NCBI RefSeq assembly: GCF_001747405.1
Contig: NZ_CP017305.1
Span: 1,878,001-1,942,000, forward strand
Direction of reading: 5' to 3'
DNA: 64,000 nucleotides
From: Chlorobaculum limnaeum
GTDB taxonomy: Bacteria > Bacteroidota > Chlorobiia > Chlorobiales > Chlorobiaceae
In this document: positions 25,962 through 37,284 of the stretch, in pieces
How the letters are laid out: the number at the start of each line of letters is the position of its first letter
How positions within the stretch are numbered: the first letter of the stretch is position 1
Program-made: the position numbers and the translations under genes
Notes under the pieces: model-generated
Seen by the model: the letters and a program-made list of their open reading frames with translations, nothing else
Told to the model about the DNA's origin: nothing
Database searches by the model: none

Positions 25962-27319
25962 GGTTCTTCGTAAGATTTAATGGTAACGCTCGTCAGCAAT
26001 TACGTCAACCGGTAATAGCCATGTTGAGCTTTCCACAGTAAAACAAAATCCTTATGCGGTAGCTGTGAAAGCTGTGGAACCCACGGGCCGATGCTTTGTA
26101 CAACTGGATCTTGCTGTTCAGACCTTCGGAAACTGCGTTGGTCATTTCGTGCTCGAAATAGTTCAGGATGTTGTCGAGATGCCGCTTCAGCAGCTCTTTG
26201 ACCTTGATCATGGGTTTCAACGCTAACTGGTCAACGCGTTCAGACCAGTAATCGAAAAAGAAGCTTGCACTCTCTCGACAACCCAGCCGCCAGAACTCCC
26301 GAAACATGTTCTTCATCGACCAGGCTTTTCCGGTTTTCAGCTCACAGGCCATCAATTGATCAAAGCTTGTCCGCTGGCTTTCCGTCATGTTCTCCGGATT
26401 GCGCAGCCAGGTGAATTTCGAGCCAATCAGAGTCCTGTCCCCTGCATGATGAAGTTGACGGGACTCTTGGCGACGAACCGTGTCGACCGCCTCGTTCAGA
26501 TATTTGCTGATATGGAAACGGTCATGCACAATATCGGCCTGCGGCAGATGCTTTTTGGCAGCAATCGCGAAGGGTTTCCACATATCCATCGAGATCGATT
26601 TCACACCCTGGCGTTGCGATGCTTCAAAGCTGAGGAGTAGCGCTTCTGCTCCATCGGTCGTTCGGCTCTGGACCACCTCAAGTACCCGGCCACCTTTCAG
26701 GTCGTTCAGGATCGTCACATACTGATGGCCTGCCCGGAAGCTCTTTTCATCAAGACCAAGATGAGCAATCGCCTCCTTATTCCGGCGGCTCAGGCCTCGC
26801 TTAACTGCACGGTTCATGATCTCGTTGGTTGCATGCCAGTTCAATCGCAAGAGCCTCGATGCCGACTGAATGCTTGAACACTCCTGAAGCAACTCGACAG
26901 CAAGCGCTTCAAACTTCAGGGTGTAGCGCGAATAGCGCGTTGCCCACGGAACTTGAATTGTCTTGATCCTGTGCTCTTTGCACTCACACCGAGGCACCCT
27001 GGCTATCAGATGCGTCTCGTACTCCATGGTATCCAGATGCCGCCACCGTTGTTCTGGCGCCAGGTCATAAATTCGTCCGGCCTTGCCGCATTCAGGGCAT
27101 TCGACTTTGGGTCCGATATACTCCAGATGGATTTCTATCCGGGGGCCGGACGTCGACAGCCGGACATCAGACACCTTCCATGTTTCTGGTAATCCTAATA
27201 ACTGCTGGTAATGGGTAATGAGGCTCGGCATACGTTGGGGTTAGTGTTTTGGCGTTCTTGGATAAATTACACCAAGCCACTCATTTTTACTACCAGCCCA
27301 TTAAATTCTGCGAAGAGCC
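25962..27319 (-). mobile_element. ISL3-family insertion sequence, copy 2
   Basis: A 1358-bp element, the same length as copy 1 and identical but for a handful of bases. The ends are GGTTCTTCGTAAGATTT on the left and, read inward, GGCTCTTCGCAGAATTT on the right. Flanks are ATAAATTT and TTTTATAT, so again no direct target duplication is visible. It has the same orientation as copy 1, with 9420 bp of chromosome between the two. Confidence 0.88.
26005..27231 (-). CDS. ISL3-family transposase
   Basis: A 408-residue DDE transposase nearly identical to the one at 15227-16453. Two residue changes lie near the N-terminus (ITHYQQ for IAHYQQ, RLSTSGP for RLSMSGP). The zinc-binding N-terminus and catalytic core are intact. 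The high identity points to recent transposition or gene conversion between the copies. Confidence 0.92.
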   Translation of the reverse strand: MPSLITHYQQLLGLPETWKVSDVRLSTSGPRIEIHLEYIGPKVECPECGKAGRIYDLAPEQRWRHLDTMEYETHLIARVPRCECKEHRIKTIQVPWATRYSRYTLKFEALAVELLQECSSIQSASRLLRLNWHATNEIMNRAVKRGLSRRNKEAIAHLGLDEKSFRAGHQYVTILNDLKGGRVLEVVQSRTTDGAEALLLSFEASQRQGVKSISMDMWKPFAIAAKKHLPQADIVHDRFHISKYLNEAVDTVRRQESRQLHHAGDRTLIGSKFTWLRNPENMTESQRTSFDQLMACELKTGKAWSMKNMFREFWRLGCRESASFFFDYWSERVDQLALKPMIKVKELLKRHLDNILNYFEHEMTNAVSEGLNSKIQLYKASARGFHSFHSYRIRILFYCGKLNMAITG

Positions 27320-27740: not shown

Positions 27741-28238
27741 ATGGTCATGAATGCCCTCCAGGACAGCGCAGGAACCATACCGTACGCTCCCGACAAGTAC
27801 ACGACGGTACTGATTGTCGATGCCGATCCCGACTCCCGAAGCCATACTGCCGCCAGCGTAGAACAACTCGGCTATACGGCACTGACGGCCGATAGCGACG
27901 AGGCGTGCATCGAACTGTTCGGCACCTGCATGATCGAGCTGCTGCTGCTCGACATCAACGAACCAAAGAAGACCGGCCTCAAGGTGCTCTCCTGGCTTCG
28001 CGAGCACGGCATATCGGTTCCGGTCATTATCATAACCAGTTCGAGCGACATCGAGCAGGCCATTTTCTCGATGAACCTGGGTGCTTACGCATACCTGCTC
28101 AGACCGGTCAGCATCAACCGGCTCGGTGTTATTAATCCAGCCAATAAAACTCGCAAATATATTATATTGCGGGTATGGAAAAAATCGATATTAGAAAAGT
28201 CTCTGACCGGGAGCGCGCTTTATTGCGCAACCAGGTGA
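27741..28238 (+). pseudogene. 5' part of a hybrid kinase gene (receiver domain), cut by IS630
   Basis: The frame encodes a receiver domain (about residues 22-130) with VLIVDADPD, the phospho-acceptor Asp in LLLLDINEPKKTG, and the ITSSS and LLRPVS motifs. At 28131 the host sequence ends and the frame continues 36 residues into the IS630 element. Removing 28132-29241 (element plus one TA) joins this frame to the kinase at 29242 without a shift, giving a 695-residue REC-PAS-PAS-HisKA-HATPase protein. It is thus the broken front half of one gene. Confidence 0.85.
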
Positions 28239-29241
28239 TTCGCTTGCGAAAGCAAGGCAAAGGCAACAATGAAGTTGCCGAACTCTTGGGGTTGTCCCCT
28301 GAAACAACGAGTCGTTGGTGGCAACGATACCAGCGAGAAGGCCAGTCCATGCTTGCGGAGCCAAAACGGGGTCGAAAACATGGAGAACAAAGGAGTCTGA
28401 ATCCTGAACAGGAAAAGAAGATTCAGAAAATGATTGTCGATCATTACCCTGAACAACTGAAACTGCCATTCGCGCTTTGGGATCGTCAGGCAATCCAACT
28501 CCTGATTCTTCAGCAGTTTGGCATCAACATGCCGATTCGCACGGTTGGCCACTACCTGTCACGCTGGGGCTATACACCGCAACGTCCGATCAGGAAAGCC
28601 TATGAACAGCGTCCAGCCGAAGTCGAGCGCTGGATGCAGGAGTCCTATCCAGCCATCAAAGCGAAGGCAAAGACTGAAAATGCCGAGATTTACTGGGCTG
28701 ACGAGACCGGCATCGCAACCAATGGCAACCTGGTCAGAGGCTATGCTCCTGCCGGAAAAACGCCTGAGTTACGACTGAATGCGCGCAAGGAGCACATCAG
28801 CATGATTTCAGCGATCAACAACCAGGGCAAGCTTCGTTTCATGCTCTATGAAGATGCCATGAACAGCAAACGACTCATCGAGTTCATGAAGCGTCTGGTC
28901 AAGGATGCAGGCCGAAAAGTGATCCTCATTCTGGACAATCTGAAAGTGCATCACAGCAAACCGGTCAAAGAGTGGCTGGGAAAGCATACGGAAAAGATCG
29001 AGGTGTTTTATTTACCGTCCTACTCACCGGAATTGAATCCAGACGAATATCTGAACAACGATTTGAAACACGCCGTGCATGGCAATTATGGTGGAGTAGC
29101 CCGATCAAAAGCGGCAATTCACGACAAGACGATTTCGCATATGAGACATCTTCAGAAAAGTCCTTGCAAAGTCGAAAAACTGTTTGATCATCCCAATGTT
29201 CGCTATGCCAAAAATTGATACCTTTATTGGCCGGAGTAATA
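28130..29241 (+). mobile_element. IS630-family insertion sequence
   Basis: An 1108-bp element (28132-29239) flanked by TA dinucleotides (28130-28131 and 29240-29241), the target duplication typical of IS630/Tc1 elements. The inner ends are imperfect inverted repeats: TTAATCCAGCCAATAAA on the left and, read inward, TTACTCCGGCCAATAAA on the right. It carries one intact transposase and splits a hybrid kinase gene. Confidence 0.9.
28175..29218 (+). CDS. IS630-family transposase
   Basis: A 347-residue Tc1/mariner-like transposase with an N-terminal helix-turn-helix (about residues 15-60, RKQGKGNNEVAELLGLSPET) and a DDE core. The triad is visible as WADETG, LILDNLKVHHSK and SPELNPDEYLNNDLK. The gene is uninterrupted, in one frame, and starts 43 bp inside the left end. 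Transcription runs in the same direction as the disrupted host gene and could carry through into it. Confidence 0.92.
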   Translation: MEKIDIRKVSDRERALLRNQVIRLRKQGKGNNEVAELLGLSPETTSRWWQRYQREGQSMLAEPKRGRKHGEQRSLNPEQEKKIQKMIVDHYPEQLKLPFALWDRQAIQLLILQQFGINMPIRTVGHYLSRWGYTPQRPIRKAYEQRPAEVERWMQESYPAIKAKAKTENAEIYWADETGIATNGNLVRGYAPAGKTPELRLNARKEHISMISAINNQGKLRFMLYEDAMNSKRLIEFMKRLVKDAGRKVILILDNLKVHHSKPVKEWLGKHTEKIEVFYLPSYSPELNPDEYLNNDLKHAVHGNYGGVARSKAAIHDKTISHMRHLQKSPCKVEKLFDHPNVRYAKN

Positions 29242-30938
29242 CCATCCGGAACGCCCTGACCGAGTTCGAGCTTCGCAACAAGCTGATGCTCTTCTCGGCG
29301 GCCATCACGCAGCTTCCGATGGCGGTGGTCATCACCAGCGACCAGGGCATTATCGAATACAGCAATCCAGGCTTTACCGCGCTGTCGGGCTACACGGAGG
29401 CGGAGGCAAAAGGGCAGCCGATGAGCATTCTGAACTCCGGCGTGCAGTCGAAGGTCTTTTACCGGAATTTCTGGGAGACCATCAACGCCGGAAAAATCTG
29501 GCAGGGCGAGATCGTCAACCGGAAGAAAAGCGGCGAACACTATACCGAATACTGCATCGTCTGCCCGATCACCGGCCCGGACGCGGAGATCGTCCATTTC
29601 ATCAGTATCAAACAGGATATTACCCAGCGCAAAAAGGAGCAGGAGGCGCTGGCCGAAAGCGAGCAGAGCTTTCAGGAGCTGGCCAACCTGCTGTTGCAGC
29701 CGGTTTTCGAGGTCGATCTCAAAGGCAACATCGTCTTTTCAAACAAGGCCGGACTCGACCTTTTCGGCTATACCAGATACGATATAGAGGAACAGGAGTT
29801 CGAGGCGATCAGGCTCTTCGCTCCTGAAGAGCGCCCGCGGGTGTTGCAGAACATGGCGGCGAGAATCCAGGGGATAACCTTCGAAAATCACGAGTACACC
29901 GCGCTGAAAAAAGATGGCACGCCCTTTCCCATTCTCATTTACAGCGAACCGATCATCCGGCGGGGCATTCCTGTTGGCGTTCGCGGCCTCTGCCTCGACA
30001 TTTCCGAGCGGAAACGCAACGAGGAGAAGCTGCTGGAGCTCAACCAGACGCTCGAAGAGCGGGTGGAGGAGCGCACGAGGGAGCTCGAAGTGACGCACCA
30101 GCAGATGATTCTCCAGGAAAAGCTCGCCTCGATCGGCCAGCTTGCCGCCGGTCTGGCGCACGAAATCAATAATCCGGTCAACTTCGTCCGGATCAATTTC
30201 GCTACGCTCCGGGAAGATGTCAGCGATCTGGGCCAGCTCATCAGGGAGTACCGGGCCGTTTTTCAGGAGATCGAACACTCCGGCCTGGCCCCCGAAGCGA
30301 TGGAACGACTCAAGGCTCTGGAGAAAAAACTGAAGGTGGATGAAGTGCTCGACGAGCTGCCGGAGCTGTTCGACGAATCGCGGCGGGGCTTCGAGCGGAT
30401 CGGCACCATTCTGAGCAGCATGCGCAACTTCTCGTTCCGCCACGCGCTCAACCAGCGCGTGCCGTTCGACCTCAACCAGGGCATCCGCGATACGCTCATC
30501 ATCGCGCAGAACGAGTACCGCTACTATGCTGAAGTGGAGACCCGCCTCGGCGAGTTGCCGGCAGCACCCTGCAACCCGGAGCAGATCAACCAGGTCTTCC
30601 TGAACATCGTCGTCAACTGCGCCCACGCCATCGCCTCGCAAAAGCGGCACGAAAAAGGACGGATCGTCATCGAGACCGGAAACGGAGATGACAATGTTTG
30701 GTGCACCATCACCGATGACGGGCCGGGCATCCCGGAACAGATCAGGAACAGAATCTTCGAGCCTTTCTTCACCACCAAGGATCCCGGCAAAGGCACCGGC
30801 CTCGGTCTGAGCATCTCATACGACATCATCGCCAACAAGCATGGCGGCAGCCTCACCGTCTCCTGCCCACCGGAAGGAGGATCGGTCTTCACCATCCGGC
30901 TGCCGCTGAAAGCCGCCGAAGCATCGACATCATCATGA
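29205..30938 (+). CDS. PAS-PAS sensor histidine kinase (3' part of the IS630-split gene)
   Basis: The remaining kinase part has two PAS domains (about residues 30-150 and 160-275 from the ATG at 29205) and a coiled coil with ERVEERTRELE. It also has an H-box GLAHEINNPVNFV and an ATPase domain with DDGPGIPEQI and [12 protein letters not shown] codons at 29196 and 29205 lie within the IS, so translation may now start inside the element and yield a kinase lacking its receiver. Its TGA overlaps the ATG of the phosphatase gene (ATGA at 30935-30938), so the two are translationally coupled. Confidence 0.88.
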   Translation: MPKIDTFIGRSNTIRNALTEFELRNKLMLFSAAITQLPMAVVITSDQGIIEYSNPGFTALSGYTEAEAKGQPMSILNSGVQSKVFYRNFWETINAGKIWQGEIVNRKKSGEHYTEYCIVCPITGPDAEIVHFISIKQDITQRKKEQEALAESEQSFQELANLLLQPVFEVDLKGNIVFSNKAGLDLFGYTRYDIEEQEFEAIRLFAPEERPRVLQNMAARIQGITFENHEYTALKKDGTPFPILIYSEPIIRRGIPVGVRGLCLDISERKRNEEKLLELNQTLEERVEERTRELEVTHQQMILQEKLASIGQLAAGLAHEINNPVNFVRINFATLREDVSDLGQLIREYRAVFQEIEHSGLAPEAMERLKALEKKLKVDEVLDELPELFDESRRGFERIGTILSSMRNFSFRHALNQRVPFDLNQGIRDTLIIAQNEYRYYAEVETRLGELPAAPCNPEQINQVFLNIVVNCAHAIASQKRHEKGRIVIETGNGDDNVWCTITDDGPGIPEQIRNRIFEPFFTTKDPGKGTGLGLSISYDIIANKHGGSLTVSCPPEGGSVFTIRLPLKAAEASTSS

Positions 30939-32590
30939 AACAACGTGACGAACTCGCCATCCTTTTCGTCGATGACGAGTCTGACATTCTCCACTCGCTC
31001 AACCGCTTCCTGAGAAGGGAGGAGTACCGGAAATTCTTCGTGGACAATGCCGCTGAGGCGCTCGACCTGCTCGCCGGAACCCCGGTCGATCTGGTCGTTT
31101 CCGACCTTCGGATGCCGGGCATGAACGGCCTCGATCTGATCAAAGAGGTCAAACGGCTCTACCCCGGCACGCTGCGGATGATCGTCAGCGGCTCCCAGGA
31201 CATCGAACAGATCATCGAATCGGTCAACAAGGGCGAGATTTTCCGCTTCATTCCCAAGCCTGTCGAACCCGAGTCGTTCAAAAGCATCCTGAACGACGCC
31301 CTCGACTACTACTGCATGAAGCTGGAACACGAAGAGCTGTTCGACGAGATTTCTCTCAAAAACGGGCAACTGACCGAGGCCAATACCACTCTCGAAAAGC
31401 TTGCCAGCGACCTGAAAAGAAGCGAGGCTCAGTTCCGTTCTATGAACGACGCGGCGCAGGACGCTGTCTTCATGCTCGACGAGAACGGCCTGATCCGCTA
31501 CCGGAACACCGCGGCGGAGGTGATGTTCGGCTACCGGAGAAGCGAACATCCGGCGCAGCCGGTCTCCGAAATCTTTCCGGAACCGTCAACGGCGCTGGAG
31601 CTGAACGATCTGGTCTCCTGCGACTCCGTCCTTCTGGCCAGGAGCTGCGCAAGCCTGGTCATCCAGATCGAGGGCATCAGGATGGATGGCTCCCGCCTGC
31701 CTCTCGAAATTTCGAGAGGGTGCGTGCACCTCGAAAACGGCCCGCACAGCGTGCTCATCGCGCGGGACATCACCACGAGAATCGAGGAGGAGAAGAGTCG
31801 CAAGCACTACGAAACCATGCAGAAAGAGCTGGAGTCGCAGATTGAGAAAAAACTCTTGCAGAGCCAGGCCCCCATTACGCTCCGGCACATCGAAATCAGC
31901 TACCTGATGCACTCCTCCGGCCATCTCGACGGGGACTTCACCGAACTGATCGAGTACAATCCCTTGCAGGCCGACCTGCTCATCGGCGACGTGATGGGCC
32001 ACGGCATCCAGTCGGCTCTCGTGAGCGCGGGAATGAAGTCGCTCTTCCTGAAGAGCATCGCCGAAGAACGCAACAGCCCGGAAGCGCTCCCGCCGCTGGA
32101 GCGAATCGTTGGACGCATTCACGAGCGGTGCATTCACGAGCTGATCGATCTCGGCATGTTCGCGACCCTTCTTTTTCTGCGACTCGACCTGAAATACCGG
32201 CAAGCCGTCTTTGTTGATTGCGGCCACAACCCGCTCATCCACCTGCCGTCGAAAACGGGGCGCTGCCGTCTGGTCAAGGGCGACAATCTGCCGATGGGAA
32301 TGATCGAAGAGGAGGAGTACCGGCAATCGGAGTTCCCGATCGATGAGAACGACCTGCTCGTGCTCTACTCCGACGGGATCACCGAAAACCGTTCGCCCGG
32401 TGGCGAGCTTTTCGGCATCGAACGCTTCACCGCGCTTCTCGAAGAGCACGCCGCGCTGCCGACCGAAGCGATTGTCGAAAAAATCGAGGCGGCGCTCATG
32501 TGTTTCTGCGGCTGCACCAATTTTGCGGATGACGTCACCTGCATCGTGATCCGGATCAGCGGAAGCACGGAAATACCGGATAACGGCTGA
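30935..32590 (+). CDS. Response regulator with PP2C-type (SpoIIE/RsbU-like) phosphatase output
   Basis: A 551-residue protein. It has a receiver domain (1-125, phospho-acceptor Asp57 in SDLRMPGMNG), a short coiled coil, a PAS domain (about 165-285) and a PPM/SpoIIE serine phosphatase domain (about 325-545). The phosphatase motifs are GDVMGHG, YSDGITENR and FADDVTC. Such proteins dephosphorylate STAS antagonists in partner switches. Two STAS proteins and an RsbW-like kinase are encoded a few genes downstream, which are its likely targets. It is coupled to the upstream kinase gene. Confidence 0.92.
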   Translation: MKQRDELAILFVDDESDILHSLNRFLRREEYRKFFVDNAAEALDLLAGTPVDLVVSDLRMPGMNGLDLIKEVKRLYPGTLRMIVSGSQDIEQIIESVNKGEIFRFIPKPVEPESFKSILNDALDYYCMKLEHEELFDEISLKNGQLTEANTTLEKLASDLKRSEAQFRSMNDAAQDAVFMLDENGLIRYRNTAAEVMFGYRRSEHPAQPVSEIFPEPSTALELNDLVSCDSVLLARSCASLVIQIEGIRMDGSRLPLEISRGCVHLENGPHSVLIARDITTRIEEEKSRKHYETMQKELESQIEKKLLQSQAPITLRHIEISYLMHSSGHLDGDFTELIEYNPLQADLLIGDVMGHGIQSALVSAGMKSLFLKSIAEERNSPEALPPLERIVGRIHERCIHELIDLGMFATLLFLRLDLKYRQAVFVDCGHNPLIHLPSKTGRCRLVKGDNLPMGMIEEEEYRQSEFPIDENDLLVLYSDGITENRSPGGELFGIERFTALLEEHAALPTEAIVEKIEAALMCFCGCTNFADDVTCIVIRISGSTEIPDNG

Positions 32591-32639: not shown

Positions 32640-34067
32640 ATGACAACCCGATCGACAAACCCCGAAAAGCGCACCCCGTCAATGACCGACAACAGATCGG
32701 CGCAAGAGGCCAGAGCGCTGGAAAAGCGGCTTAGCGGACGCTCAAAAGGGCGGCGCGGCTGGCGGCGACACGCGGCGTTCGCCGTGAGCACGGCGCTCTC
32801 TGAGCTGATCGTGCGGCTGATCGAGATTGGCGTGGCGCTCTCGGTGACACTCTTCGCCTTCGTTCCGGTGCTGCTCGCGCGGCTCGCGCACCGGCTGCCC
32901 GCCGGAAAGCCGGTGTTCTCGAAGCGCGCCGTGTTTGGCCGTTCGGGCAAACCGCTGACGCTTCTGAGCTTCGACGGCCTTTCGGGCGGCATGGCCACGC
33001 TGCCGTGGTTCCTGGAGCTGTTCACCGGACGGATCGCCCTTGCGGGCACGGCGATCCGTGACTGGCATCCCGCCGCCGCGCCGGAGCAGGGGTACATCAG
33101 CATGGTGAAACCGGGCATCGTTTCGCTCTGGAATGTCCGCCAAAGCAGCCGGATCGCCCACGAGGGACGCGAAGCCACCGAGTGGGAGTACATCTTCAGC
33201 AAGCGTCCGGCGTACGACTTCCTGCTGATCCTGCGCGCGCTTCCGGCCCTGCTCTTTTCCGAAAAGGAGGCCTCGCCGTCACCGCTCTTCAATCTGCTCG
33301 ACCTGAAGATCGACAACATCTCGATGCGCGAGGCGATCTCGATGATCCGGCAGTCGATCGAAGAGCAGCGGCAGTCGGCCATCTTTTTCGTCAATCCGGA
33401 CTGCATGAACAAGAGCGTCACCGACCGAGGCTACCGCAAGGCGCTCGCCTCGGCGGATCACATCCTGCCGGACGGCATCGGCCTGGTCATCGCGGGCAAG
33501 ATGCTCGGCACTCCGCTCTGCGAAAACATCAACGGCACCGACATGCTGCCGTTTCTGTGCGAAATGGCGGCAAGCCAGAAGCGCTCGATTTACCTGCTCG
33601 GCGGCAAGCCCGGCGTGGCCGAAAAGGCGGGCGACGCCATCGCGCAAAACCACGGCGTCACCATCGCGGGCGCAATGCACGGCTACTTCGACCATGAAAC
33701 GGAGAGCGCCGGAGTGATCGAAGCCATCAACCGCTCGAACGCCTCGATTCTGCTCGTGGCCTTCGGCGCGCCGCTCCAGGAGCAGTGGATTGTCCGTCAC
33801 CGCGCGGCACTCCGCCCGGCGATCCTCATGGGCGTGGGCGGCCTGTTCGATTTCTTTTCGGGAAACATCCAGCGAGCGCCGCGCTGGATGCGGGAAATCG
33901 GGCTGGAGTGGGTCTACAGAATTTTGCAGGAGCCCGGAAGAATGTGGAAACGCTATGTCGTAGGCAATCCGCTGTTTCTATACCGGGTCATGAAATGGAA
34001 AGTGCTTGGCCAAAGCTCGAACCCAGAAAATCAATGGAACTCGATCCAACCGTCCGGCGGGAACTGA
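32640..34067 (+). CDS. WecG/TagA-family glycosyltransferase fused to a degenerate priming-transferase domain
   Basis: A 475-residue protein. The C-terminal half (about 220-465) is a GT26 WecG/TagA/CpsF enzyme with FFVNPDCMNKS, ADHILPDGIGLV, LLVAFGAPLQEQW and GVGGLFDFFSGNIQRAP. It would transfer a sugar such as ManNAcA onto a lipid-linked primer. The N-terminal half has a membrane helix (about 50-85) and then resembles a bacterial sugar transferase (PF02397): PVFSKRAVFGRSGKPLTLLS, LPWFLELFTGRIALAGT and KPGIVSLWNVR. The catalytic Asp-Glu and the segment before it are missing. This half is probably non-catalytic. Confidence 0.85.
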   Translation: MTTRSTNPEKRTPSMTDNRSAQEARALEKRLSGRSKGRRGWRRHAAFAVSTALSELIVRLIEIGVALSVTLFAFVPVLLARLAHRLPAGKPVFSKRAVFGRSGKPLTLLSFDGLSGGMATLPWFLELFTGRIALAGTAIRDWHPAAAPEQGYISMVKPGIVSLWNVRQSSRIAHEGREATEWEYIFSKRPAYDFLLILRALPALLFSEKEASPSPLFNLLDLKIDNISMREAISMIRQSIEEQRQSAIFFVNPDCMNKSVTDRGYRKALASADHILPDGIGLVIAGKMLGTPLCENINGTDMLPFLCEMAASQKRSIYLLGGKPGVAEKAGDAIAQNHGVTIAGAMHGYFDHETESAGVIEAINRSNASILLVAFGAPLQEQWIVRHRAALRPAILMGVGGLFDFFSGNIQRAPRWMREIGLEWVYRILQEPGRMWKRYVVGNPLFLYRVMKWKVLGQSSNPENQWNSIQPSGGN

Positions 34068-34753
34068 TCCGGAAAATCGGCGGCAACATCCGGCCATCGC
34101 TCCGGCTCCGGGGCAAAATGAAGGTTGCCGCCTGGGAGAACACCATCCGCCTCTCCTACCTTGCCAAGCGCCTGCTCGACATCGTGGTTTCGACGCTCGC
34201 GCTCGTCGCGCTGCTGCCGGTTTTCATCGTCACGGCGCTCTCGATCGTGGTGGAAAATCCGGGGCCGGTCTTTTTTGTCCAGATACGAGTCGGCAGGAAC
34301 GGGCGGCACTTCCGGTTCTACAAGTTCCGCTCGATGGTGGTCAACGCCGAAAAGCTCAAGACCGAACTCGCCGCGCATAACGAGTCGAAGGACGGCGTGA
34401 TCTTCAAGATGAAAAAAGACCCGCGCATCACCCGCACGGGGCGCATCATCCGCAAATTCAGCATCGACGAGCTGCCGCAGCTCATCAACGTGCTCAAGGG
34501 AGACATGAGCCTGGTGGGGCCGCGCCCGCCGGTGCCGAAGGAGGTGGAACAATACACCCTCGAACAGCGCAAACGGCTGCACGCCATTCCGGGCATCACG
34601 GGGCTGTGGCAGGTCAGCGGCAGGAGCGACATTCCGTTCACCGATCAGGTGCGGCTCGATTTGCAGTACATCCAGAGCGCCGGCGTCATCAACGACCTGC
34701 GCCTTCTCCTGAGAACCATCCCTGCCGTGCTCAGCGGCAAGGGCGCATACTGA
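34034..34753 (+). CDS. Undecaprenyl-phosphate priming sugar transferase (PF02397)
   Basis: A 239-residue monotopic phosphoglycosyl transferase that loads the first sugar phosphate onto the lipid carrier. The reentrant membrane helix (about 44-75), GPVFFVQIRVGRNGRHF, YKFRSM, the catalytic Asp145-Glu146 in FSIDELPQL, and VLKGDMSLVGPRP are all present, as is GITGLWQVSGR. The ATG at 34034 overlaps the end of the WecG gene by 34 bp; an in-frame ATG at 33995 is an alternative. It is the active counterpart of the two degenerate copies in neighbouring proteins. Confidence 0.92.
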   Translation: MELDPTVRRELIRKIGGNIRPSLRLRGKMKVAAWENTIRLSYLAKRLLDIVVSTLALVALLPVFIVTALSIVVENPGPVFFVQIRVGRNGRHFRFYKFRSMVVNAEKLKTELAAHNESKDGVIFKMKKDPRITRTGRIIRKFSIDELPQLINVLKGDMSLVGPRPPVPKEVEQYTLEQRKRLHAIPGITGLWQVSGRSDIPFTDQVRLDLQYIQSAGVINDLRLLLRTIPAVLSGKGAY

Positions 34754-34764
34754 AGGAAACCGAC

Positions 34765-35130
34765 ATGAAATTCACGCTCGACAACATCGACGGCCAGCTT
34801 GTGGGCATCGCGGAGCTGGAGGGACGACTCGACGCCCGCAACAGCAAGCCGCTGCAGAAAACCTTCCTCGAATGGCTGGAAAAAACGCCGTTCCTCGTGT
34901 TCGATTGCAGTCTGCTCGATTTCATCGACAGCAGCGGGCTGGGAGCCATCGTGGGCTGCCTGCGCAAGGCGCTCGAAAAGGAGGGCGATCTGAGGCTTGC
35001 CGGAATGAACGAAAAGGTGGGCATGGTCTTCGAACTGACGCAGGCGAAGCGGCTCTTTTCGATCTTTTCCAACGGGAACGAGGCAGCTTTATCGTTCGCA
35101 GCGAAACCCGATTCAGGAACCGGGAGATGA
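34765..35130 (+). CDS. STAS-domain anti-anti-sigma factor-like protein (first)
   Basis: A 121-residue STAS protein. The phosphorylatable serine lies in FIDSSGLGAI (Ser56/Ser57), as in SpoIIAA and RsbV. An AAGGAAA ribosome site lies just before the ATG. It should bind the RsbW-like kinase when dephosphorylated. Its TGA overlaps the ATG of the next gene (35127-35130), so it is co-translated with a glycan-locus protein, not with its kinase. Confidence 0.88.
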   Translation: MKFTLDNIDGQLVGIAELEGRLDARNSKPLQKTFLEWLEKTPFLVFDCSLLDFIDSSGLGAIVGCLRKALEKEGDLRLAGMNEKVGMVFELTQAKRLFSIFSNGNEAALSFAAKPDSGTGR

Positions 35131-36521
35131 AAACCATCCTCGCTTTCAGGGAAGAGGCGTTTGCATGGAGTCACGAGGTTTTTCCCTGCGTGCACCCGCT
35201 GCTTTTGCCGCTGTGCAACAAGCCCTTCATCGAATACCTGATCGATCTGGCAATCCTGACCGGCAGCACGGCCGTTCGCATCCTTTGCGACGGCGGGCTT
35301 GGCCCGGTGGAGCGCTATTGCGAGGATGGCAGCCGCTGGGGCATCGCGCTCTCCTACGAAAGCCTTCATGCCGATGATACCGTACCGATCCTGCTCGGCA
35401 AGAACCGCAGGTTTTGCGGCAGCGAGCGGATCATGGTCGTCAGCGGCTTCTCGTTCATCCGTTACGACAAGCGGCTCGACTACAAAAGCCTGGCCGGTTC
35501 GCGGCCCGAAGGCGAATGGGTCTCGAGCCCCGGCGGCAGCATCACGCTCTCCGGCCCGCCGGAACAGCCGCGGACGGACGGAACAAACCCGCCGTTGTCG
35601 CTCATGCCGCTCGACGGCCTGGCGACTTACTACCGCGCGTCGATGGAGGCGCTCGAAACCGGCGCCGACCGCTACGTTCTGCCCGGCTACGGCGGTGAGC
35701 CGGGGTGCTCCATCGGCAGGAACGTGGTCATCAGCAAATCGGTGCAGATCCGCAAGCCAGTGAGCATCGGCAACAACGTCCAGCTCCTCGGCGACACGAT
35801 CATCGGACCCTCGGCCATCATCGGCAGCAACGTCATCATCGACCGGGAAAGCTCGGTGGAATCGAGCATCGTGCTCGACAACACCTACATCGGCGAGCAC
35901 CTCGAAGTCAACGGGCGCATCGCCTCGGGCAACCGGCTCAACGATCCGGTAAGCGGCGCGTCGATCTCGATGGAAGATCCGCACCTTCTCGGCAGCATCA
36001 AAAAGAGCCGGGCCCTGAGCGCCCTTCCGCGCAAAATCGCGCACGCCCTCGCCGCGCTCGTCATGATCGCCGTGCTCTCCATTCCGTTCCTTCTCCTCGC
36101 GCCGCTGCTCAGGTTTGGCGGACGGTGGAAATCGGCCCGGATCGAATGCCTTTCCGAAAATCCCGACGACACCATCCCGCTCGGCAAGGTCGAGCTGGAT
36201 ACCGTAAACGCGCCAGGAGCGATAGCCGCCGCTCTTTCGCTGGATCGCTATATCTGGCTTTTCCGGGTGCTCACCGGCCAGCTTGCGCTCATCGGCAGCA
36301 CGCCGCTTCCGGCTGACGCGAACCAGCCGAACTCTCCGGCAAACGCGCTCGCTTACCGGCCCGGCGTCTTCAGCTACGCCGAAGCCGAGGAGTGGCCCGC
36401 GACCGGCGGCGACGCGGCCATCGTCGAGCGCTTCCATCTGACGCACGGAAGCACGCTCGCGGACATCGGTCTCTCCATCAAGGCTTTCATCAACCGCCTT
36501 CAGGAAAAAAGCACTGTATGA
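35127..36521 (+). CDS. Nucleotidyltransferase-like / left-handed beta-helix / degenerate sugar-transferase fusion
   Basis: A 464-residue three-part protein. Residues 1-160 resemble a sugar-nucleotide transferase (LCNKPFIEYLIDLAI) but lack the GxGTRL phosphate loop. Residues about 193-270 are hexapeptide repeats of a left-handed beta-helix (IGRNVVI, IGNNVQL, IGSNVII). Residues about 300-464 hold a membrane helix and a priming-transferase-like end (YIWLFRVLTGQLALIGSTPL, YRPGVFSYAEAEEW) without the Asp-Glu pair. All enzyme signatures seem lost, so a scaffold or regulatory role is inferred. It overlaps both STAS genes by ATGA. Confidence 0.75.
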   Translation: MKTILAFREEAFAWSHEVFPCVHPLLLPLCNKPFIEYLIDLAILTGSTAVRILCDGGLGPVERYCEDGSRWGIALSYESLHADDTVPILLGKNRRFCGSERIMVVSGFSFIRYDKRLDYKSLAGSRPEGEWVSSPGGSITLSGPPEQPRTDGTNPPLSLMPLDGLATYYRASMEALETGADRYVLPGYGGEPGCSIGRNVVISKSVQIRKPVSIGNNVQLLGDTIIGPSAIIGSNVIIDRESSVESSIVLDNTYIGEHLEVNGRIASGNRLNDPVSGASISMEDPHLLGSIKKSRALSALPRKIAHALAALVMIAVLSIPFLLLAPLLRFGGRWKSARIECLSENPDDTIPLGKVELDTVNAPGAIAAALSLDRYIWLFRVLTGQLALIGSTPLPADANQPNSPANALAYRPGVFSYAEAEEWPATGGDAAIVERFHLTHGSTLADIGLSIKAFINRLQEKSTV

Positions 36522-36853
36522 TCATCACCGAAACATCGAATGACGGCATCGCCATCGTCGCCCTCGAAGGCACGCTCGATGCCCTCTCTGCTCCGGAACT
36601 CCGGAACATCCGCTCGGTCACCGACCCTGAAAAAACGGTTATCCTCGATCTGGAAAAGGTGGATTTCATCGACAGCAGCGGCCTGGGAGCCATTGTCGGC
36701 GCGACGAGGGTGAAACTCGATCCGGCCCGCGGCGTCGTGCTCGCCTGTCTGAACGACCGCGTACGCAAAGTCTTCGAGATCACCAACGCACAAAAGCTCT
36801 TCCATATTTTCGACGACACTTCGGCCGCCGTCGATTTCGCGGCAACCCGGTAA
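36518..36853 (+). CDS. STAS-domain anti-anti-sigma factor-like protein (second)
   Basis: A 111-residue STAS protein with FIDSSGLGAIVGATR and phospho-serine candidates Ser53/Ser54. It is related to the first STAS protein and keeps the residues needed for phosphorylation. It overlaps the upstream fusion gene by ATGA at 36518-36521 and precedes the RsbW-like kinase gene by 11 bp, an order common in partner-switch operons. Confidence 0.88.
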   Translation: MIITETSNDGIAIVALEGTLDALSAPELRNIRSVTDPEKTVILDLEKVDFIDSSGLGAIVGATRVKLDPARGVVLACLNDRVRKVFEITNAQKLFHIFDDTSAAVDFAATR

Positions 36854-36864
36854 AGCACGCGCAC

Positions 36865-37284
36865 ATGAGTAAAATCATCACACTGACCCTTCCGGGAGAG
36901 CGCGCCTTTGCAAGGATGGCTTCGCAAACCGCCTCGTCGATTGCCGATTTCGTGACCGGCGACGCTCGGCAGGAACCCGCAGGCCGGGAGTTTTCCCATG
37001 CCTTCGAACTCGCCGTCAGCGAAGCCTTCACCAATTCTGCGACCCATGACGACGCGTGCGCCAACATGCCGACGGTCACGCTCACCTTCGAGTTCGAAGA
37101 GCGGCAGCTCACCGTGAGCGTGCGCGACGCCAACGAACCATTCAGCATCGAAACGCCCGCGCCCGACATCGAGAACTACCCCGAAAACGGCTACGGGCTC
37201 TGGATCATCCGCAAGGTGATGGACAGCGTCACCTACCGGCGCGAAGGAAATTCGAACATCATCTCCATGTCTAAAACACTCTAA
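36865..37284 (+). CDS. RsbW/SpoIIAB-like anti-sigma (HATPase) kinase
   Basis: A 139-residue GHKL ATPase. The N-box is ELAVSEAFTNSATH with Glu53, Asn57 and His61. The ATP-lid region has VRDANEPF, and GYGLWIIRKVMD forms the glycine-rich box. Such kinases phosphorylate STAS partners and hold a sigma factor or other target. No sigma factor gene is seen in the window, so the target may lie elsewhere or may be a glycan enzyme. It ends 3 bp before the next glycosyltransferase gene. Confidence 0.9.
   Translation: MSKIITLTLPGERAFARMASQTASSIADFVTGDARQEPAGREFSHAFELAVSEAFTNSATHDDACANMPTVTLTFEFEERQLTVSVRDANEPFSIETPAPDIENYPENGYGLWIIRKVMDSVTYRREGNSNIISMSKTL

Follow-up and report, generated by a model that had tools for sequence, protein, structure and literature searches.

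The window analysed here, a 64,000-nucleotide stretch of the 2.80 Mb genome of Chlorobaculum limnaeum (contig NZ_CP017305.1, positions 1,878,001 to 1,942,000), encodes a small, true monotopic phosphoglycosyl transferase (PGT; P0002, 239 amino acids, 34034 to 34753) together with two larger proteins that each contain a PGT-homologous domain lacking catalytic residues. Domain 1 (32787 to 33269) spans residues ~50-210 of a 475-amino acid WecG/TagA/CpsF (GT26) glycosyltransferase (P0001, 32640 to 34067). Domain 2 (35994 to 36506) spans residues ~290-460 of a 464-amino acid protein (P0003, 35127 to 36521; hereafter the 35127 protein), where it follows a nucleotidyltransferase (NTase)-like domain (35127 to 35681) and a left-handed beta-helix (LbH) hexapeptide domain (35694 to 35984; PF00132, 33.0 bits). 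A STAS protein of the anti-sigma antagonist type (34765 to 35130; PF01740, 62.4 bits) is encoded between the true PGT and the 35127 protein, and all four genes are oriented on the positive strand. At about even chances, we read both domains as pseudo-PGTs: no longer catalytic, they would be retained within the membrane as parts of the machinery that initiates exopolysaccharide synthesis, with domain 1 as a tether and the 35127 protein as a STAS-controlled partner.

The 34034 product is a full member of its family (PF02397, 224.6 bits) and carries D145-E146 (codons 34466 to 34471), in agreement with the original prediction that it retains the features of the family, including this pair. In the PGT PglC, the Asp-Glu pair is the catalytic dyad and Arg88 and Arg145 bind undecaprenyl phosphate (Und-P) (PMC10519829). 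The catalytic and Und-P-binding columns (Pro, Lys, Arg, Arg, Asp, Glu, Arg, Arg) are conserved in all 40 true PGTs compared. The two other domains score far lower: the N-terminal half of the WecG protein scores 27.1 bits against PF02397 (E 3.4e-6, cut-off 27), and the C-terminal third of the 35127 protein falls under the cut-off (19.9 bits, E 5.6e-4). Profiles built from the relatives of each domain match true PGTs (E 4.8e-10 for domain 1, 4.5e-6 for domain 2), PDB sequences of WbaP (E 4.6e-10 and 4.5e-6, respectively) and PglC (E 4e-5 and 3.7e-8), and each other (E 1.3e-10). By these profile matches, domain 1 is a monotopic PGT homologue. In the AlphaFold2 model of P0003 (mean pLDDT 74.5), residues 285-459 superimpose on the WbaP cryo-EM structure 8t53 with Z 13.6 and a root-mean-square deviation of 3.9 over 162 aligned residues; on this model, domain 2 is a monotopic PGT homologue with the PGT fold, and for domain 2 the structural check for an unrelated fold that accompanied the original prediction came out in favour of homology. 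The AlphaFold2 model of domain 1 has pLDDT below 50 across much of residues 149-209, and Foldseek with VIA-align on the whole P0001 model, in which domain 1 is thus poorly modelled, listed GT26 structures only above background and no PGT. The GT26 part of the same protein is recognised by PF03808 (209.4 bits) and by a structural match to TagA (Z 26.6).

The Asp-Glu pair is absent from domain 1 in 28 of 28 relatives, and the 32640 protein has A119-T120 in its place. Most relatives have Arg, Ala or Ser in the Asp column, and Ser predominates in the Arg145 column. The alignment of the WecG N-terminal half to PGTs, the loss of the pair and a gap of about 40 residues, all claimed earlier from the sequence, hold. 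However, the ~39 missing residues lie immediately upstream of the dyad columns, which are themselves present, so the pair was substituted and not deleted as had been proposed. Although the catalytic columns are lost, the cytosolic motifs PGI-SLW--R and HEG persist, Gly159 is invariant, Arg167 is found in 27 of 28 relatives, and the membrane helix keeps its proline (Pro76 in the window) in 20 of 28. Domain 2 differs in that the nucleophile is retained: the dyad columns read D373-R374, with Asp in 31 and Arg or Lys for Glu in 32 of 33 relatives. The earlier description of this region as a PGT homologue without the pair is therefore right as to the homology and the Glu, and wrong as to the Asp. 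The Arg88-equivalent column is A368 and is variable (Arg in 1/33, Lys in 5/33), and the membrane-helix Pro is present in 31 of 33. The first 195 residues of the 35127 model match RmlA (Z ~15), yet the protein had no PF00483 match in the Pfam scan and the GGxGTR nucleotide loop occurs in 0 of 36 NTase-like relatives, all of which keep an Asn-Lys-Pro motif. Judged from its residues, neither the NTase nor the PGT site of the 35127 protein appears functional, and with its NTase half looking dead there is no evident 'next enzyme' in it to dock.

The dead sites might instead be binding modules that hold Und-P, an undecaprenyl diphosphate (Und-PP)-linked sugar or a nucleotide, passing the product on or sensing it, an idea close to the original proposal that the domains dock enzymes to the lipid carrier. 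Arg167 of domain 1, two residues from the Arg145-equivalent column, could serve in this way, as could the Asp with its basic neighbour in domain 2 and the NTase-like Asn-Lys-Pro, which are retained across two phyla. However, the pseudo-domains have lost the KxRSM segment, the Glu of the dyad and the residues equivalent to Arg88 and Arg145, and in PglC, changing Arg88 or Arg145 abolishes most of the activity (PMC10519829). The loss of the Und-P arginines counts against docking to the lipid carrier as first proposed, and we consider binding modules improbable.

Selection was estimated as Nei-Gojobori omega, taken as the median over close pairs. The true PGT is the most constrained (0.077); domain 1 (0.145) is under strong purifying selection, as constrained as the GT26 enzyme to which it is fused (0.181). 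Within the 35127 protein, values are 0.15 for the LbH domain, 0.265 for the NTase-like domain and 0.39 for domain 2 (0.39-0.64 for the listed pairs with the window sequence), so that domain 2 is looser than domain 1 but below neutrality. These values, together with conservation across phyla, led us to reject ordinary pseudogenes.

The unit is conserved in two phyla. Among 394 genomes of the window's own phylum, full-domain strong matches to domain 1 are confined to Chlorobiaceae, as are full-length 35127-type proteins (38 genomes). Among 125 Cloacimonadota genomes, a domain 1 match outside true PGTs was found in 14 and a 35127-type protein in 25, four of them as pieces at contig ends. The order true PGT, STAS, 35127-type gene, with the STAS gene directly upstream of the last, is seen in 39 of 39 loci of Chlorobiaceae and Cloacimonadota (the window, L013, L058-L077 and the Cloacimonadota loci); because these were selected via matches to the proteins themselves, the figure informs on order and not on prevalence. 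The earlier claim of two fused pseudo-transferases around a true enzyme thus stands as to a conserved unit, present in two phyla and under selection, whose domains are best read as non-catalytic. The GT26 partner is variable, being fused to domain 1, free of it, joined to a GT4 enzyme with or without it, or absent. GT4-GT26 fusions in Cloacimonadota place the pseudo-PGT between the two enzymes in L144 and L153 and omit it in L155, L156 and L157. In some loci, an extra N-terminal domain of ~130 residues precedes domain 1 (L067:3884-4350, L069:3959-4310, L072:2790-3210); it is receiver-like by eye and had no Pfam receiver match. This extra domain is joined to a truncated domain 1 with no GT26 in L072-L074, and to GT26 without domain 1 in L076. 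The STAS and HATPase genes are multiplied in L061 and L062.

Beyond these phyla, an Azospirillum plasmid encodes a true PGT together with a GT26 protein whose PGT domain lacks the dyad and an NTase-LbH protein that has no PGT domain. Searches of plasmids returned no match to the 35127 protein, nothing by tblastn with domain 1 alone, and a Deinococcus match that was set aside as a plain GT26 protein.

Relatives with intact sites show from what kind of enzyme such domains might derive. On Roseobacteraceae plasmids (L163-L165), GT26-PGT fusions occur in the reverse order with the Asp-Glu pair kept and looking active, and adjoin O-antigen-ligase-like and regulator genes. One distant genome of the own phylum encodes a 612-amino acid NTase-LbH-PGT protein with both NTase loop and dyad intact, directly after a STAS gene (L172:1468-3303, also L200:6703-8538). 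In another family (L166 and L167), a SpoIIE gene and a STAS gene accompany an NTase-LbH-PGT gene whose dyad columns read Ser-Arg by eye; in L166 (1126-4423) these form a compact three-gene unit with a 568-amino acid NTase-LbH-PGT-like product, and no true PGT was seen adjoining it. Other hits, ~850 amino acids long, match the NTase-LbH part only. In a quick tree with weak deep support and some long branches, domains 1 and 2 each form essentially one group outside the clade of the neighbouring PGTs. On this basis the arrangement looks old, and we rejected an origin of the pseudo-domains by recent duplication of the PGT beside them. Such relatives could also mean that the domains are decaying remnants of bifunctional GT26-PGT and NTase-LbH-PGT enzymes, redundant beside a separate PGT and without a present role, as the omega of 0.39-0.64 in domain 2 and the loss of domain 1 in some lineages would allow. 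The omega of domain 1 speaks against decay, as does the fact that both domains persist in two phyla and carry specific substitutions that have become fixed, for example Glu to Arg/Lys in 32 of 33 relatives, making this very improbable.

In the pseudo-PGT reading that we prefer, domain 1, with its built-in kinked membrane helix, would hold GT26, the next enzyme of the pathway, at the inner membrane, close to the true PGT that supplies its Und-PP-linked acceptor, and the 35127 protein, with both its NTase and PGT sites dead, would be a STAS-controlled partner of that PGT. The STAS protein would be phosphorylated by an RsbW-type kinase and dephosphorylated by a receiver-SpoIIE phosphatase, and would bind the 35127 protein, tuning initiation. 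The invariable position of the STAS gene between the true PGT and the 35127-type gene points to regulation, and the pairing of STAS with NTase-LbH-PGT proteins in both the intact and the dead state is the chief reason to suspect that STAS acts on the 35127 protein. A more specific version, which we offer tentatively and hold to be rather unlikely, is that an ancestral NTase-LbH-PGT enzyme gave rise to the 35127 protein as a pseudoenzyme subunit of the initiating PGT, switched by STAS; as a membrane-bound regulator with conserved Asp-Arg/Lys and Asn-Lys-Pro residues, it would gate exopolysaccharide initiation post-translationally and exemplify a class of targets so far missing for the STAS regulators of polysaccharide loci.

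Several points weigh against the non-catalytic tether and partner roles. Several Cloacimonadota GT26 proteins are without domain 1 in units that are otherwise retained, making the tether dispensable there; domain 2 evolves fast, with an omega of up to 0.64 against the window; the model of domain 1 is poor; and the tethering, the partnership with the PGT and the STAS control all depend on contacts that are predicted. A rival reading is that the domains are plain membrane anchors, which insert their kinked helix but do not specifically touch the true PGT, STAS or the lipid carrier. In its favour, the retained features include the membrane helix with its Pro, relatives lack domain 1 or have other modules in its place, and domain 2 is loosely constrained. 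However, the conserved residues of domain 1 are mostly cytosolic (G159, W164, R167, H174-E175-G176 and E183), beyond what anchoring would require, GT26 enzymes already bind the membrane through a C-terminal part (PMC6493773), and the STAS pairing would be left unexplained. Plain anchoring is possible but rather unlikely.

Bifunctional monotopic PGTs (Bi-PGTs) are a named class (PMC10942596, after O'Toole 2021), in which, as here, a PGT domain is fused to another pathway enzyme; the Roseobacteraceae GT26-PGT and intact NTase-LbH-PGT proteins are of this kind, whereas the PGT domains of the window lack catalytic residues and have a separate true PGT alongside. The large PGT WbaP and Myxococcus EpsZ-EpsW likewise have a monotopic PGT that starts synthesis while non-catalytic parts govern assembly (PMC10942596, PMC12802240), where the small regulator EpsW controls the PGT EpsZ through direct binding (PMC12802240). 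Those non-catalytic parts are a domain of unknown function with a four-helix bundle, or a response regulator, in contrast to the dead PGT domains described here, for which binding is predicted. TagA/WecG enzymes share the GT26 catalytic fold and C-terminal part and are activated on the membrane, soluble TagA dimers being inactive, and membrane binding matters for TagA activity; TagA depends on its C-terminal appendage, whereas the WecG protein of the window has an N-terminal pseudo-PGT domain in addition (PMC6493773). The combination of NTase-like and LbH domains in the 35127 protein is shared with GMPPA and eIF2B epsilon, and its fold matches include eIF2B and the human GMPPA/GMPPB complex, but the C-terminal pseudo-PGT membrane domain sets it apart. 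GMPPA is a non-catalytic regulatory subunit. A STAS protein with a phosphatase and kinase in a polysaccharide locus is also found in the SypA/SypE system, in which the downstream partner and mechanism of SypA are unknown (PMC4517449); here, by contrast, the STAS gene is fixed between the true PGT and the pseudo-PGT protein.

Pseudoenzymes are common (PMC10211241), and no description of degenerate PGT domains was found in the literature searched, the scope of which did not include the O'Toole 2021 superfamily survey. If correct, the pseudo-PGT reading would show clearly that monotopic PGT domains without activity can be kept by selection for architecture or regulation and not for catalysis, and it offers a concrete candidate target for the STAS partner-switch proteins of polysaccharide loci. 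It also carries a warning for annotation, as the Azospirillum and Cloacimonadota versions exceed the Pfam sugar transferase cut-off without the catalytic pair.

The gene families in the surrounding region suggest a Wzx/Wzy-type exopolysaccharide locus containing a partner-switch module. The polysaccharide initiation genes are bracketed upstream by a PAS histidine kinase and a receiver-PAS-SpoIIE phosphatase (29184 to 32590), and downstream by a second STAS protein and an RsbW-type kinase (36518 to 37284). The phosphatase (30935 to 32590; PF00072, PF00989, PF07228) is the likely STAS phosphatase, and the HATPase protein (36865 to 37284; PF13581, 70.7 bits) is the likely serine kinase of the STAS proteins. 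Together with the second STAS protein (36518 to 36853; PF01740, 62.4 bits), both are encoded on the positive strand, so that a gene set of the RsbU/V/W type, with SpoIIE phosphatase, HATPase kinase and STAS, is co-encoded at the locus. Further downstream are genes for a GT2 enzyme, a hexapeptide acyltransferase-like protein, a polysaccharide export protein, further glycosyltransferases and a flippase-like protein. A transposase-like open reading frame (28175 to 29218) overlaps, by eye, the end of a short receiver-like one (27741 to 28238), as if an insertion element had interrupted a response-regulator gene, and a second transposase-like open reading frame lies at 26005 to 27231, also identified by eye.

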